DNA of 64,000 nt from Hyphomicrobiales bacterium (GTDB lineage: Bacteria; Pseudomonadota; Alphaproteobacteria; Rhizobiales; Beijerinckiaceae): the NCBI GenBank assembly GCA_028290405.1, contig JAQGJX010000102.1, positions 1-64,000 on the forward strand, written 5' to 3'. The translations under genes and the position numbers were made by a program. Positions 18,530-30,519 of the stretch are shown piece after piece (position 1 is the stretch's first letter; each line of letters starts with the position of its first letter). The notes below the pieces were generated by a model that was not told where the DNA came from, made no database searches, and saw only the letters and a list, made by a program, of their open reading frames with translations.

Positions 18530-19210
18530 TCAAGGGTTCGGCGGCCTCGCCACGGCAACGCCGATCATCGCATCGCGCGTGACGAGCGCGGCCAGGGCCT
18601 CCTCGTCCATCGCCTCCGTGCCGGGCGGGCGCTGGGGCACGACGAGGTAGCGCAGGTCGGCGGTTGAATCGTGCACCCGCACCTCCTGCGAGGCCGGCAC
18701 CTCCAGCCCGAACTCTTCCAGCACGGCGCGCGGCTCGCGCACGATGCGGGCGCGATAGGCGCGGCTCTTGTACCAGGAGGGCGGCAGGCCCAGCAGGTCG
18801 CGCGGATAGCAGGAGCACAGGGTGCAGACGACCACGTTGTGCACGTCCGGCGTGTTCTGCAACGCCACCAATTGGGTGGTGGCGGTCTGGAATCCAAGCT
18901 CGCGGATGGCCGTGTTGGCGTCGGCGATGAGGCGCTCGTGGAAACCCGGATCGGCCCACGCTCGCGCCACAACCTTCGCGCCATTGGCGGGGGTGATGGA
19001 ATCGCGCGCCTCCATGGCGGCGCGCACCTCGTCGGCCGTGACGACGCCCTTCTCGATCAGCAGCTCCTTCAGGGCGATGCCGAGGATCTGGTAATAGGAA
19101 TGCACCTTGTCGTCAGGCTGCGGCGGCGCGTGATGGTCGTGACCGTGATGACCGTCGTGGTCGTGGTCATGGTCATGGTCATGATGATGGCCGTGCGGAT
19201 CGTTGCTCAT
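18530..19210 (-). CDS. nitrile hydratase alpha / thiocyanate hydrolase gamma-like subunit
   Basis: VVCTLCSCYPRDLLGLPPSWYKS metal site; His-rich N-terminus HGHHHDHDHDHDHDGHHGHDHH. Confidence 0.92.
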   Translation of the reverse strand: MSNDPHGHHHDHDHDHDHDGHHGHDHHAPPQPDDKVHSYYQILGIALKELLIEKGVVTADEVRAAMEARDSITPANGAKVVARAWADPGFHERLIADANTAIRELGFQTATTQLVALQNTPDVHNVVVCTLCSCYPRDLLGLPPSWYKSRAYRARIVREPRAVLEEFGLEVPASQEVRVHDSTADLRYLVVPQRPPGTEAMDEEALAALVTRDAMIGVAVARPPNP

Positions 19211-19228
19211 GTGCTTTGTTCCTGCGGC

Positions 19229-19516
19229 TCAGGGCTTTTCAAGCCAGTTGTCCATGAGGTCGATGGCCAGCGTGTCGCGCGGCGAGCCCTTGTAGGCCGG
19301 CCAGATCTCGGCTTGCTGGAAACTGACTTCGTAGACGTACTTCTTCTCGCCCGGCAGGCCGAACGCCAGCGTCTCGGGATTGCCGTAGGCGCCGAAACCG
19401 CGCGTGACCCGGCCCGTCTTGCCGCGGATGTAGACCGGCGTGCGGAAGTGGCCGATGGGGTAATCCTCGCGCACGCGCACAAGGTCGCCTTCACGGAAAC
19501 GCTGCGTCACAGGCAT
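19229..19516 (-). CDS. nitrile hydratase beta, C-terminal domain as separate subunit
   Basis: RFREGDLVRVREDYPIGHFRTPVYIRGKTGRVTRGFGAYGNPE; GGAGGAG before ATG. Confidence 0.88.
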   Translation of the reverse strand: MPVTQRFREGDLVRVREDYPIGHFRTPVYIRGKTGRVTRGFGAYGNPETLAFGLPGEKKYVYEVSFQQAEIWPAYKGSPRDTLAIDLMDNWLEKP

Positions 19517-19854
19517 TTCGTCTCCTCCTCCGCCCGCAGCTCCAGTTCGCCCGTCTCGGCGAGCCGCTGGCGCACCTGCGCCACCTTGGCGTCGATCTCG
19601 TCCTGGGTGAGCACGCCCTTGTCGATCAGCTGGCGCTGCAAGGCCGCCGTCCAGCGCTCGTAATAATTCAGCTTCTCGTAGACGTCGTGGCCAAGCTGCT
19701 CGATGTTGCGGCGGTTTTCGTGCCCGGACGCGATGCCCTTGGCGCCGACGACGCCGCGTACGGCGTCGATCTGCTTCTCCCAGAAGGCCAGTTCGTGCGT
19801 GGAGTTGTCGATGGGGCCGTCCTCCAGCCCGCCAACGTCATGGGGTCCGCGCAT
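19507..19854 (-). CDS. nitrile hydratase beta, N-terminal domain as separate subunit
   Basis: ATG at 19854 after GGAGG; MRGPHDVGGLEDGPI...NYYERWTAALQRQLIDKGVLTQDEIDAKV. Confidence 0.85.
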   Translation of the reverse strand: MRGPHDVGGLEDGPIDNSTHELAFWEKQIDAVRGVVGAKGIASGHENRRNIEQLGHDVYEKLNYYERWTAALQRQLIDKGVLTQDEIDAKVAQVRQRLAETGELELRAEEETKCL

Positions 19855-20002
19855 GTCGCCTCCTTGCAAAACAGTCGGGGCCATCTTGCCGCATCGCGCG
19901 CCGGCGACGCAAGCGTTGCGGGAGCGGCGCGCACGAGACGCTGGCGCCCGCCAAATCAATCCGCTACGCCGCTCAGGCACGTCCAGCAAAGCGGTTCAGA
20001 AC

Positions 20003-25169: not shown

Positions 25170-25727
25170 ATGAAATTATTTGCCGCCGGACGCGTCCTCA
25201 TGCTGAATGGGCGCCCACAGGCGGAACAGACCATGACCGGCGGAAAATCGGCGAAGGCGGACATGCAACCGGAGGACGCGGCGAAACGGCTGTCTCTGTC
25301 CCGGTTCCTGCCCTACCAATTGTCCGTCGCGGCCGAGAGCGTGAGCCGGGTGTTCGCCCGCCGCTACGAGGAATCCTTCGGGCTCACCGTTCCCGAATGG
25401 CGCGTGATGGCCGTGCTGGCCGAGACGGACCGCATCCCCACGCAGGACATCATCGAACGCACCCAGATGGACCCGGTGCGCGTGAGCCGCGCCGCGATCC
25501 GCCTCGCCGACAAGGGGCTGGTGCAGCGCAAGACGAACCCCAGGGACCAGCGCGCCCACCTGTTGAGCCTGAGCGCCGAGGGGCTTGCGGTCTATGGCCA
25601 GATCGTGCCGCTGGCGCGCGACCTCGAGCAGGACCTGACGGAGACGCTGACCGAGGCCGAGCGCGCGCAGCTCGAGGCGATCCTGGCGAAGATCCACGCG
25701 CGGGGCCGCATGCTGCTGGCCGATTAG
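25170..25727 (+). CDS. MarR family transcriptional regulator
   Basis: winged-helix region TQDIIERTQMDPVRVSRAAIRLADKGLVQRKTNPRDQRAHLLSLSAEG; start may be internal. Confidence 0.88.
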   Translation: MKLFAAGRVLMLNGRPQAEQTMTGGKSAKADMQPEDAAKRLSLSRFLPYQLSVAAESVSRVFARRYEESFGLTVPEWRVMAVLAETDRIPTQDIIERTQMDPVRVSRAAIRLADKGLVQRKTNPRDQRAHLLSLSAEGLAVYGQIVPLARDLEQDLTETLTEAERAQLEAILAKIHARGRMLLAD

Positions 25728-25853
25728 CCGTCCCGCGCGAAAGCCCGCAAGGCGCCAATTCCGTGCGCTTCCTTGACCCCGCGACGCCGCGCGACGATGA
25801 TGCGCGCGCTTTTGAAATAGCAGGCCGAGCCGCTCGGCCGCCCGGGGGAAACC

Positions 25854-27056
25854 GTGAAAGTCTTCGTCTTCGATCTTCTGCCCTACGCCACGCATCTCGA
25901 CCATCTGCGGGTGGACGGCGAACTGCCCTACCCGCTCGGCGCGGCCCATTGCGACCCCAAGGTCGTCGCCCGCACCTATGCGGAGCACCTGGACGCCTGG
26001 GAGGAGATGGACCGGCTGGGCTACGACGGCGTGGGCTTCAACGAGCACCACACCTCCCCCTACGGGCTGATGAACTCGCCCAACCTGCTGGCCGCCGCCG
26101 CCGCGCAGCGCACCAAGAACATCAAGCTGCTGATCTACGCGAACCTGCTGCCGCTGCACAATCCGCTGCGGCTGGCGGAGGAACTCGCCATGCTCGACTG
26201 CATGTCGAACGGGCGCATCATCTCCGGCTTCGCGCGCGGCATTCCGCGTGAATACGCGGTGCACAACGTGCCGATGAGCGAATCGCGCGAGCGCTTCGAG
26301 GAAGCCTACGAGATCGTCACGCGCGCCTGGTCCGAGGACATCTTCTCCTACGAGGGCAAGTTCTGGAGCCACAAGGACATCGCCATCTGGCCGCGTCCCT
26401 ACCAGCAGCCGGGCCCGCCGGTGTGGATTCCCGTCACCGGCAGCCGCGAGTCCATCGAGTGGGCGGCGGCCCGCAACATTCCGATCACGCCCGGCGCCGC
26501 CACCGAAGGCCTGCGGCTGGACGCGGTGCGCCTGTACGCGCAGAGCCTCGCGCAGCACGGCCGCACGATCACGCCCGACCACATCTCCCTGCCCGCCAAC
26601 GTCTTCGTCGCCGACAGCAAGGCGGAGGCCGTGCGCCAGAACGCGCCGTACCACCTGTATTTCAACACCACGATCTACAGCCACGGCAATTTCACCGAGA
26701 CCAGCAAGCAGCGCGGCTCGGGCTATGTGAGCGAGCGCGCCAGCGACTACGTGAGCCAGGAAAACCTGAAGGCGTTCGAGCGCTCGCGCGACGACTTCCG
26801 CAAGCTCACCTTCGCGGACGTGGAGAAGCAGGCGCAGAACATGCCCTGGGGCTCGCCAGACGAGGTGACCCAGCGGCTCATCGACGCCGCCGAGCGCGCC
26901 GGCGCCGGCACGCTGCTGCTCAGCATGAACCGGGGCGCCATGCCGCAGGAGCTGTTCCTTGAGCAGATCCGCCGCTTCGGCCGCGACGTGCTGCCCGCCC
27001 TGCAGGCCTATCAGGTGAAATCCTCGCCCTTCGCCGCGCAGGCCGCGGCGGAATAA
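25854..27056 (+). CDS. LLM-class flavin-dependent monooxygenase
   Basis: luciferase-like fold; YDGVGFNEHHTSPYGLMNSPNLLAAAAAQRT. Confidence 0.88.
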   Translation: MKVFVFDLLPYATHLDHLRVDGELPYPLGAAHCDPKVVARTYAEHLDAWEEMDRLGYDGVGFNEHHTSPYGLMNSPNLLAAAAAQRTKNIKLLIYANLLPLHNPLRLAEELAMLDCMSNGRIISGFARGIPREYAVHNVPMSESRERFEEAYEIVTRAWSEDIFSYEGKFWSHKDIAIWPRPYQQPGPPVWIPVTGSRESIEWAAARNIPITPGAATEGLRLDAVRLYAQSLAQHGRTITPDHISLPANVFVADSKAEAVRQNAPYHLYFNTTIYSHGNFTETSKQRGSGYVSERASDYVSQENLKAFERSRDDFRKLTFADVEKQAQNMPWGSPDEVTQRLIDAAERAGAGTLLLSMNRGAMPQELFLEQIRRFGRDVLPALQAYQVKSSPFAAQAAAE

Positions 27057-27137
27057 CCGACATCAGCGCCGGCGGCCTGCGGGCCGCCGTTTTCGACGAC
27101 AAAAAAGGGCCGACGGGCGGCCTGCAGGGAGGTCACA

Positions 27138-28835
27138 TTGAAGAACTCGGTCGACGGCGGCGAAGCCGTACTTGAAGCCATGCGCAACCTGGGCGTGGAT
27201 TACATCATCTCCTCGCCCGGCTCGGAATGGAGCCCGGTGTGGGAGGCCATGTCGCGCCAGACGGTGGAAAAGAACGACGGCCCGAAGTTTCTCGATTGCT
27301 GGCATGAGACGCTCGCGGTCGACATGGCGCTGGGCTACACGGCCGTGACGGGCCGCATGCAGGCGGTTCTGCTGCATGCGGGCGTGGGCCTCATGCACGG
27401 CTCCATGGCGATGCTGAGCGCCACCAAGGCCGAAATGCCCATGCTGGTGATGTCCGGAGAATCGACCACCTACGGGGACGATCCCGAGCGCGAGGTCGAG
27501 CCGCAATTCTACGGCGGCGTCAGCGAGGGCGGTTCGGAACGCTATGTGGCGCCCATCGTGAAGTACGCCACCCACGTCAACAATCATTCGACGCTGTACC
27601 ACACCATCGTGCGCGGCGCGGAGATCTCCCAGCGCACGCCGCGCGGGCCGGTCTACGTCAACGTGTCGCTGGAGGCGCTGCTGCAGGAGTGGAAGCGCCC
27701 CGACGACCTGCGCAAGGTCGCCCCGGCGCCCCGGACCCAGGCCATGCAGCAGGACGTGGAGGAGGTTGCGGCGCTGCTGCGCGCCGCCAGGAACCCCGTG
27801 GTGGTTGTGGAACTGGCGGGCCGCGATCCCGAAGCGTTCCACGCGCTCGTCGAGATGGCGGACGCGCTGGCCGTGCCGGTCGTCAACGGCCGCGCGAGCG
27901 TCTACTCGAACTTCCCGCGCAACCACGACATGTGGCAGGGCTACCAGACCTTCGAGCACGTCGAGGACAGCGACCTTATCCTGCTGGTGAGCGGCAAGAC
28001 CCCCTGGTACACGCCCTCCAAGCGCCCGGGCGTCGGCAAGATCGTGTCCATCAGCGAGTATCCGCTGAAGACGCACCTCGGCTACCAGGTGCTGCACGCC
28101 GACAGCTATCTGGAAGGCGACGTCGCCGCCGCCCTGCGGATGCTGACCGCCGCCGCGAAGCCCGGCCCCGGGGACGCGGCGAAGATCGAGGCGCGCCGCG
28201 CCAAATGGAAGGGCGTCCATGACGCCTATGTGGCCAGCATGGCGGCCGCGCGCGAAAAGTCCGTGGCGACGGGCGCCATCGACGCGCTGGCGCTGGCGGA
28301 CGTCGCCGGCAAGGCGCTGCCCGGGAACACGATCGTCTGCGACGAGACCATCACGCACATGCCCGTCATGCGCCCGCACCTGCCGCTGGACGAGCCGCAA
28401 AGCTTCTTCCGCGTGACGGGCGGCGCGCTCGGCCAGGGCATCGGGGCGGCGCTGGGCGTCAAGCTTGCGTCGCCTGACCGCCCGGTGGTGCTGTTCGTGG
28501 GCGACGGATCGTTCCTCTACAACCCGATCATCCAGGCGCTCGGCGCGTCCAAGACGCACAAGCTGCCGATCATCATCGTGGTCTGCAACAACAAGAAGTA
28601 CGAGGCCATGCGCAAGGGCCACGTGATCTACTACAAGGGCGGCTACGCGGACACGACGCGCTTCCATCACGGCGTGGAGATCGACGGGCCGGAGTACCAC
28701 GAGCTGGGAAGCCATTTCGGCTTCTTCGGCGCCAAGGTCTCCACACCCGACGCGCTCGCCAAGGCCTTCGCCGACGCGCTTACGGCGAACCGGGACGGCC
28801 GAACGGCCATCCTCAATGTCGAGATGGTGAAGTAA
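27138..28835 (+). CDS. thiamine-pyrophosphate-dependent enzyme (acetolactate synthase-like)
   Basis: TTG start after GGGAGG; CWHETLAVDMALGYTAVTG; C-terminal VVLFVGDGSFLYNPIIQALGASKTHKLPIIIVVCNN. Confidence 0.88.
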   Translation: MKNSVDGGEAVLEAMRNLGVDYIISSPGSEWSPVWEAMSRQTVEKNDGPKFLDCWHETLAVDMALGYTAVTGRMQAVLLHAGVGLMHGSMAMLSATKAEMPMLVMSGESTTYGDDPEREVEPQFYGGVSEGGSERYVAPIVKYATHVNNHSTLYHTIVRGAEISQRTPRGPVYVNVSLEALLQEWKRPDDLRKVAPAPRTQAMQQDVEEVAALLRAARNPVVVVELAGRDPEAFHALVEMADALAVPVVNGRASVYSNFPRNHDMWQGYQTFEHVEDSDLILLVSGKTPWYTPSKRPGVGKIVSISEYPLKTHLGYQVLHADSYLEGDVAAALRMLTAAAKPGPGDAAKIEARRAKWKGVHDAYVASMAAAREKSVATGAIDALALADVAGKALPGNTIVCDETITHMPVMRPHLPLDEPQSFFRVTGGALGQGIGAALGVKLASPDRPVVLFVGDGSFLYNPIIQALGASKTHKLPIIIVVCNNKKYEAMRKGHVIYYKGGYADTTRFHHGVEIDGPEYHELGSHFGFFGAKVSTPDALAKAFADALTANRDGRTAILNVEMVK

Positions 28836-28870
28836 GGCTCGCCTGCGCGAAGATGATCCACGCACCACGT

Positions 28871-28896
28871 CCCCGGGGCGCGAAGCGCACCCGGGG
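28871..28896 (-). repeat. intergenic palindromic repeat (family A), reverse orientation
   Basis: ccccggggcgcgaagcgcacccgggg; core is near-identical to reverse complement of 136-176 core. Confidence 0.55.
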
Positions 28897-28922
28897 TTCA
28901 GGGGCGGGCGCCTCATCCGGCG

Positions 28923-28960
28923 GCTCTGGGTCCCGGATCGTTGCGCGTCCGGGAAAGCGG
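28923..28960 (+). repeat. intergenic palindromic repeat (family A)
   Basis: gctctgggtcccggatcgttgcgcgtccgggaaagcgg; stem tcccgga/tccggga. Confidence 0.6.
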
Positions 28961-28991
28961 GCTTCATCAGCTTTGAGGCGGTCTTGGGCGC

Positions 28992-29012
28992 GCGCCGGGA
29001 GGCGCGCGGTCC
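28992..29012 (+). repeat. 21-nt dispersed repeat, copy 2
   Basis: identical to 13473-13493. Confidence 0.6.
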
Positions 29013-29088
29013 AGTGCGCCGCAAACCCTTTGCGGATCGCCGCGTTTCTTCTAGTCTGCCGCGCAGCCCTCCTGCGGACAGCGCCCAC

Positions 29089-30519
29089 TTGAACAAGCAA
29101 CTCATCACGCCGCTGATCGTCGCCTGCGCGCTGCTGATGGAGAACATCGACTCCACCGTCATCTCCACCTCCCTGCCGCTGATCGCGGCGGACCTTGGCA
29201 CGGACGCGTTGTCGCTGAAGCTCGCCATCACGTCGTACCTGCTCTCCCTCGCGGTGTTCATTCCCGCCAGCGGCTGGGTGGCGGACCGGTTCGGCGCCCG
29301 CAACGTGTTCCGCCTGGCGCTCGTCATCTTCGTCGTCGGCTCCATCATGTCCGGCATGTCGAACTCCATCTGGCAGATGGTGGGCGCGCGGGTGCTGCAG
29401 GGTTTCGGGGGCTCCATGATGCTGCCCGTCGGGCGGCTCATCGTGCTGCGCTCAGTGCCGCGCGCGCAGATGGTGGCGGCGTTCGTGTGGCTCACCGTGC
29501 CGGCGATGATCGGCCCCCTCATGGGCCCGCCGCTCGGCGGCTTCATCTCCACCTATTTCAACTGGCGCTGGATCTTCTGGATCAACGTGCCGGTGGGAGC
29601 GCTCGGGGTCGTGCTGGCGAGCCTCTACATCGACGACGTGCGGGAGGAGAACCCGGGACCGTTCGACCTTGCGGGCTTCCTGCTGACCGGCGTCGGCTTC
29701 TCGGGCCTCGTGTTCGGGTTCTCGCTGCTGGGCGGGCACTTCGTGTCGCCCCTGCTGAACGCGGCGCTGATCGGCGCGGGGCTCGCGTCCCTCATCGTGT
29801 ACGTTCTGTATGCGCGCGGGCGCGACAATGCGGTGCTGGACCTCACGCTGTTGCGCATTCCCACGTTCCGCACGGCCCTTGCGGGCGGCGTGCTGTTTCG
29901 GCTGTGCATCGGCGCCCTGCCCTTCCTGCTGCCGCTGTTGCTGCAACTGGGGTTCGGCCTGTCGCCGTTCCAGTCCGGCCTGCTGACGTTCGCGGGCGCC
30001 ATCGGCGCGCTGGCGATGAAGTTCACCGGCCCGTGGTCCCTGCGCACGTTCGGCTTCCGCAACGTGCTGCTCATCAACGGCGCCATCACGGCCGCGTTCA
30101 TGGCGGCGAACGCGCTGTTCACGCCGCAGACGCCCCATGCTGTCATTCTCGTCGTGCTGATCACCGGCGGATTCTTCCGCTCGCTGCAATTCACGGCGCT
30201 GAACGGGCTTGTGTTCGCGGACGTGGAGAACCAGCGCATGAGCCGCGCCACCACGATGAACGCCGCCATCATGCAGGTCGGCGCCTCGGCGGGCGTGGCT
30301 CTGGGCGCGCTGGCGGTGGAGCTCACCCAGATCCACAGCGGCGCGGCGCAGGTGGGAGCGGACACGTTCGGGCCCGCGTTCGTCCTGCTGGGCGGCTTGA
30401 TGCTGGCCTCGACGCTGTTCTTCCTGCGCCTGCCGCCCAACGCCGCGGAAGGCATTGCAGGATCCATCAGAATGCGCGGCCCCAAGGGCGGCCCGCAGAA
30501 GGAGCAGGCGGCGGAATGA
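29089..30519 (+). CDS. MFS transporter, DHA2/EmrB-like
   Basis: TTG start; NIDSTVISTSLPLIAADLG; 14-TM-like ORF. Confidence 0.88.
   Translation: MNKQLITPLIVACALLMENIDSTVISTSLPLIAADLGTDALSLKLAITSYLLSLAVFIPASGWVADRFGARNVFRLALVIFVVGSIMSGMSNSIWQMVGARVLQGFGGSMMLPVGRLIVLRSVPRAQMVAAFVWLTVPAMIGPLMGPPLGGFISTYFNWRWIFWINVPVGALGVVLASLYIDDVREENPGPFDLAGFLLTGVGFSGLVFGFSLLGGHFVSPLLNAALIGAGLASLIVYVLYARGRDNAVLDLTLLRIPTFRTALAGGVLFRLCIGALPFLLPLLLQLGFGLSPFQSGLLTFAGAIGALAMKFTGPWSLRTFGFRNVLLINGAITAAFMAANALFTPQTPHAVILVVLITGGFFRSLQFTALNGLVFADVENQRMSRATTMNAAIMQVGASAGVALGALAVELTQIHSGAAQVGADTFGPAFVLLGGLMLASTLFFLRLPPNAAEGIAGSIRMRGPKGGPQKEQAAE

Follow-up and report, generated by a model that had tools for sequence, protein, structure and literature searches.

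A three-subunit architecture is not new in the nitrile hydratase (NHase) and thiocyanate hydrolase (SCNase) superfamily, being already known from SCNase, toyocamycin NHase and the NHase of Streptomyces canus. The SCNase of Thiobacillus thioparus (scnB-scnA-scnC; 2DD4, 2ZZD) has a beta subunit made of two polypeptides and a separate metal subunit, which carries CTLCSC followed by Tyr-Pro-Arg and a His-rich N-terminal tail. The enrichment of Alphaproteobacteria in a homology-based SCNase tree has already been remarked upon (PMC10098168). AnhDEA from S. canus CGMCC 13662 is encoded in the order beta-N, beta-C, alpha, with a cobalt-type claw and no reported accessory gene, and this NHase has been purified and its maturation studied (PMC7329996). 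Toyocamycin NHase (ToyJKL), which belongs to a nucleoside antibiotic cluster, was represented here by split operons adjoining QueC in two Streptomyces genomes, assigned by this context, and these putative ToyJKL loci had three subunits in the identical order. The two-subunit cobalt NHases (P. thermophila, 1IRE; P. putida, 3QXE; Bacillus, 2DPP) have a fused beta, a Trp in the pocket and an accessory gene, while the eukaryotic NHase of Monosiga is a single polypeptide in which beta precedes alpha and a His-rich stretch precedes the alpha part (PMC2603476, PMC3323583).

The operon described here lies at 18530-19854 on the minus strand of the window, by which is meant the whole 64,000-nucleotide stretch analysed (contig JAQGJX010000102.1, from a Hyphomicrobiales bacterium). 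It comprises three genes, each with an ATG start, in the order beta-N, beta-C, alpha, as in AnhDEA and the putative ToyJKL, and like SCNase it has a two-polypeptide beta and a metal subunit; the Monosiga enzyme shares the precedence of beta and the His-rich stretch, but is one polypeptide rather than three. Beta-N (115 aa, 19507..19854) matched the N-terminal half of NHase beta (PF21006, 74.9 bits, E 7e-21) and is the counterpart of SCNase beta, beta-C (95 aa, 19229..19516) matched the SH3-like C-terminal half (PF02211, 74.4 bits, E 1e-20) and is the counterpart of SCNase alpha, and alpha (226 aa, 18530..19210) matched the metal-binding subunit (PF02979, 270.9 bits, E 5e-81) and is the counterpart of SCNase gamma. 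All three matches were far above chance level. The beta-N stop and the beta-C start overlap by 10 nt (19507..19516), an arrangement that may couple their translation. Ribosome-binding sites were read directly upstream of beta-N (CAAGGAG, 19860..19866) and of beta-C (GGAGGAGGAG, 19522..19531, which includes GGAGGAG). The metal claw of alpha, CTLCSC (residues 129-134, 18809..18826), was also read directly; in the comparison set this motif occurred in the Co-type structures, as opposed to CSLCSC in the Fe-type structure. The initial annotation had reported these frames and sizes, the overlap, the GGAGGAG of beta-C and the cobalt-type claw, and each was found in place; its reading as a three-subunit, split-beta, cobalt-type NHase-family operon agrees with the frames, the Pfam matches and the claw motif.

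The best PDB match of beta-N, and its nearest solved structure, was SCNase beta (2dd4_B), while beta-C matched the C-terminal halves of NHase beta and 2dd4_A, and the structures nearest to beta-C and alpha were NHases. An AlphaFold model of alpha (pLDDT 93) matched both the NHase alpha and SCNase gamma folds and does not discriminate between them. For the residue comparisons, the sequences used for SCNase gamma and SCNase alpha, and for the alphas of P. thermophila and Rhodococcus, were verified by PDB search. Beta-N Arg48 aligned with SCNase beta-Arg91, and Arg25 of the GHFR motif in beta-C with P. thermophila beta-Arg157; the two-subunit cobalt NHases share these conserved beta Arg positions, together with CTLCSC and the alpha fold. 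The PF02979 match with a CxxCSC claw, and the beta-N and beta-C domains with both cysteine-binding Arg positions, are those expected of a member of the NHase/SCNase superfamily, while the beta of the window occupies two reading frames rather than the single fused frame of two-subunit NHases. Alpha residues 79-118 and 149-208 additionally matched the NHLP-type RiPP leader families TIGR03793 and PF14407. Such leaders are known kin of NHase alpha, and the match reflects this kinship; alpha was not considered a RiPP.

The alpha gene was detected in 36 of 51 genomes of the window's genus, and in those sister-genus loci that were examined and offered enough sequence beta-N and beta-C were separate frames, in the order beta-N, beta-C, alpha. 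A scan of named genomes, biased towards close relatives of the query, gave 80 loci of mostly the same architecture in Rhodobacteraceae, Hyphomicrobiales, Streptomyces, Rubrobacter, Binatota and others. More than 100 distinct split loci of the window type were found in Pseudomonadota, Streptomyces, Rubrobacter and Binatota, and the type is not rare. The overlapping frames at the beta-N/beta-C junction could be taken to mean that an ordinary beta gene has been interrupted by a sequencing or assembly frameshift, or that the operon is decayed. However, the identical split is present in dozens of independent assemblies, beta-C keeps an intact ribosome site and start codon, and both halves are ~60-80% identical to the proteins of sister species. 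An assembly artefact can be dismissed, because separate frames in this order occur across the genus and well beyond it, and an explanation by frameshift or decay has practically no probability left.

Variation in this architecture was also observed. Certain genomes hold two operons, one split and one of the classical alpha-beta-accessory type. The order beta-C, alpha, beta-N occurs within the group with Arg after CTLCSCYP, in a Rhizobium leguminosarum plasmid (L205) and in L073, L173, L196, L197 and L203. In L074 (2749-3714), L075 and L081 beta-N and alpha are naturally fused in a single polypeptide; beta-C was looked for near the fusion in L074 and none was found.

Phylogenetic analysis was performed on alpha and, separately, on the joined beta halves (beta-N+beta-C); all trees are unrooted. 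In a tree of 90 alphas the two-subunit NHases were divided from the window-group split types and SCNase gamma with 100/100 support, and the beta tree gave the same 100/100 division. The window remained with SCNase at 100/100 when the S. canus type, represented by Streptomyces loci matching the published anhD primer, and later the putative ToyJKL were added to the alpha tree. The putative ToyJKL sequences, included in one alpha tree only, grouped there with the S. canus AnhDEA type (99/97) on the two-subunit NHase side. The window lies outside this ScNHase/Toy clade with 100/100 support in the alpha and beta trees, and the two SCNase rows unite, at 100/100, in a long-stemmed branch of their own that leaves out the window. 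Since the ScNHase/Toy types fall on the NHase side and the window with SCNase at 100/100, the trees divide the three-subunit enzymes into two groups, with the window in the SCNase-side group and SCNase itself a long separate branch. The initial annotation had proposed a third lineage, and phylogeny with ScnABC and the putative ToyJKL upheld this insofar as the window was not placed inside the two-subunit NHases; the lineage is, however, not equidistant from ScnABC and ToyJKL, as it falls on the SCNase side of a 100/100 branch. In the best trees the ScNHase/Toy group stands beside L267 and L268 (99/92), which suggests that the split arose independently in that group, while a single origin of the split was not rejected in two AU tests (p 0.56 and 0.27). 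L267 and L268 are fused-beta NHases of Streptomyces with YPL and no adjoining accessory gene.

The residue after CTLCSC-Tyr-Pro in the window alpha is Arg137 (18800..18802, minus strand) in place of the NHase pocket Trp, and it aligned with gamma-Arg136 of SCNase and alpha-Trp116 of NHase (2DD4, 3VYG, 3VYH). This position has already been swapped by others in both enzymes: 3VYG (3vyg_C) is SCNase R136W and 3VYH (3vyh_A) is NHase W116R, as identified by exact sequence match and entry titles. Among loci with separate betas, those of the window group had Arg in 104 distinct loci and Lys in four, and those of the ScNHase/Toy group had Leu, Val or Ile in 21, with YPV in the putative ToyJKL; the anhD-primer loci also differ from the window in a motif, LLGPSPxWYK. 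Loci with a fused beta had Trp, His or Phe (68 loci), Leu (two) or Arg (one, an Azospirillum scn locus with a seemingly fused beta). Because of the Azospirillum scn locus and the ScNHase/Toy types, a strict rule by which Arg always accompanies a split beta was rejected. As a clade marker, Arg represents about one evolutionary event, so that its association with the split provides no independent functional evidence. Two further loci, L063 and L104, have separate betas yet carry YPW and an accessory gene and lie within the two-subunit clade, while the apparent combination of separate betas and Trp in L257 was a scoring artefact from a weak beta-N match. On an Azospirillum ramasamyi plasmid (L207), scnC lies beside a single 283-aa SH3-like gene, seemingly a fused beta-N/beta-C, with neighbouring HupE-type and TauE-type genes and flanking transposases.

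SCNase has the accessory protein P15K. A match to the accessory gene model TIGR03889 over its cut-off was obtained in all 19 genomes carrying a two-subunit operon, which served as positive controls, and in none of 26 genomes (drafts) with the split operon alone, where weak matches were mostly beta-N itself. In the window genome no accessory gene (TIGR03889) was found and beta-N was present once only; the window thus combines a split beta in the order beta-N, beta-C, alpha with the lack of an accessory gene, as do the ScNHase/Toy types. In S. canus, AnhD, the counterpart of beta-N, forms AnhD2-AnhA and acts as a metal and self-subunit-swapping chaperone, and cobalt insertion is possible without an activator (PMC7329996). 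The simplest reading, by analogy with an S. canus enzyme from a different branch, is that beta-N of the window takes an AnhD-like chaperone role. Alpha also has a His/Asp-rich N-terminal tail, read directly (residues 7-27, 19130..19192, minus strand), which may serve as a cobalt reservoir. Similar tails are present in most relatives, in SCNase gamma and in many two-subunit alphas and are not specific; the tail was rejected as a sign of accessory-free maturation, as two-subunit alphas with an accessory gene carry one too. Genes for the cobalt transporter CbtAB adjoin the relative's operon on the R. leguminosarum plasmid (L205), as do cytochrome P460 and sulfite oxidase genes, and a gene for a HoxN/NixA-type cobalt transporter adjoins a relative on a Streptomyces plasmid.

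In the window the genes flanking the operon encode a low-affinity iron permease and a MAPEG protein, and a TRAP transporter is encoded upstream. From sequence recognition we take the surrounding region to be guaB ... rsmB-guaA; the neighbours guaB, iron permease, MAPEG, rsmB and guaA gave no clue to the substrate. Elsewhere in the window, two long open frames on the minus strand (25176-26684 and 27063-29552) had no Pfam match and are possibly not genes. In five sister-species loci (L049, L051, L052, L053 and L089) the start of an SDR gene overlaps the alpha stop codon by 1 nt, and in a close relative, the sister species G001 (L034:8459-12148), genes for a TctC receptor and for [2Fe-2S] and molybdopterin-binding hydroxylase subunits lie between beta-C and alpha. 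The presence of SDR, molybdenum hydroxylase and TctC receptor genes in the operons of relatives suggests that the enzyme serves catabolism, with different oxidoreductases as its partners.

These data appear to favour, with somewhat better than even confidence, a cobalt hydrolase of the nitrile/thiocyanate type with a charged pocket, predicted to be matured by its own beta-N. Beta-N, beta-C and alpha would build one cobalt(III) enzyme of the superfamily, in which the CTLCSC claw of alpha would hold cobalt, with two of its cysteines presumably oxidised to sulfinate and sulfenate as elsewhere in the family. By alignment, beta-N Arg48 and beta-C Arg25 would bind the oxidised cysteines and jointly replace the single beta of NHase. 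The enzyme would hydrate a carbon-nitrogen triple bond, with an amide or amide-like compound as the product. With Arg137 in place of the pocket Trp, a feature shared with SCNase, the pocket is predicted to be positively charged, and it would most likely favour an anionic or strongly polar nitrile over thiocyanate itself. The most likely route of metal loading is that beta-N, a homologue of the accessory protein, delivers cobalt through a beta-N2-alpha intermediate in the manner of AnhD, and the His/Asp tail of alpha perhaps concentrates the metal.

A lesser but appreciable likelihood attaches to an ordinary, broad-specificity NHase acting on neutral nitriles, similar to that of S. canus, in which the effect of Arg would be limited to tuning the pocket and the split would be functionally meaningless. 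Alpha scored 262 against the NHase model TIGR01323 (cut-off 249.85), its identity was greatest to NHase alpha (53% to that of P. putida vs 43% to SCNase gamma), and the split, accessory-free AnhDEA hydrates acetamiprid, thiacloprid and benzonitrile (PMC7329996); against this, a 100/100 branch separates the window from all characterised NHases used, the S. canus type included, and a group-wide replacement of the pocket Trp by Arg or Lys is unlikely to be neutral. The same division of subunits, the shared Arg at the gamma-136 position, the joint position in the alpha and beta trees and the His-rich tail would all suit a true thiocyanate hydrolase, converting SCN- to carbonyl sulfide and ammonia. 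Two features speak against SCNase proper, however: alpha scored 207.4 bits against TIGR03887, under the cut-off of 291.45, and beta-Arg90 is replaced by Asn47, directly before Arg48. The FYTR motif of SCNase alpha is GHFR in beta-C, the two SCNase rows exclude the window from their long-stemmed branch, no sulfur or cyanate gene was recognised among the adjacent genes, and the SCNase model, run against 399 genomes of the phylum, returned nothing over its cut-off; thiocyanate hydrolysis proper is accordingly considered unlikely.

Far less probable still is a nucleoside-nitrile hydratase resembling the toyocamycin enzyme and acting in purine metabolism, although the putative Toy-type enzymes are likewise encoded as beta-N, beta-C, alpha and the window operon lies between guaB and guaA, as recognised by sequence. 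The putative ToyJKL join the ScNHase type among the enzymes of the two-subunit side and have YPV where the window has YPR. The gua-region position is common to seven sister-genus loci and is lacking in the others examined; a purine link through guaA and guaB was rejected, the position being found in just some sister species. The two QueC-adjoining Streptomyces loci (L265, L266) are themselves probable toyocamycin/sangivamycin clusters, in which the split NHase is followed by what we take, from sequence recognition, to be phosphoribosyltransferase-, PurA-, PurB- and IMPDH-like genes.

In a literature search with thin coverage of subscription papers, no characterisation (activity, metal or complex) of the Arg-type, accessory-free branch was found. 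The predicted charged-pocket hydrolase may tentatively be extended to a third functional class, which we regard as possible rather than probable: three-subunit cobalt enzymes that lack an accessory protein, have a pocket lined by Arg and are loaded by their own beta-N, acting on an anionic nitrile in natural catabolism, with SCNase as a specialised offshoot and not a family apart. The substrate question is open to a direct test by a single Arg/Trp exchange, and activator-free cobalt NHases would be handy biocatalysts. Window-type proteins are named in databases simply as nitrile hydratase alpha and 'SH3-like domain' protein. If they do constitute a class of their own, with a charged pocket and an inherent capacity for metal loading, more than 100 loci in Alphaproteobacteria, Actinomycetota and others would be misleadingly annotated, and the origin of thiocyanate hydrolase would be revealed.
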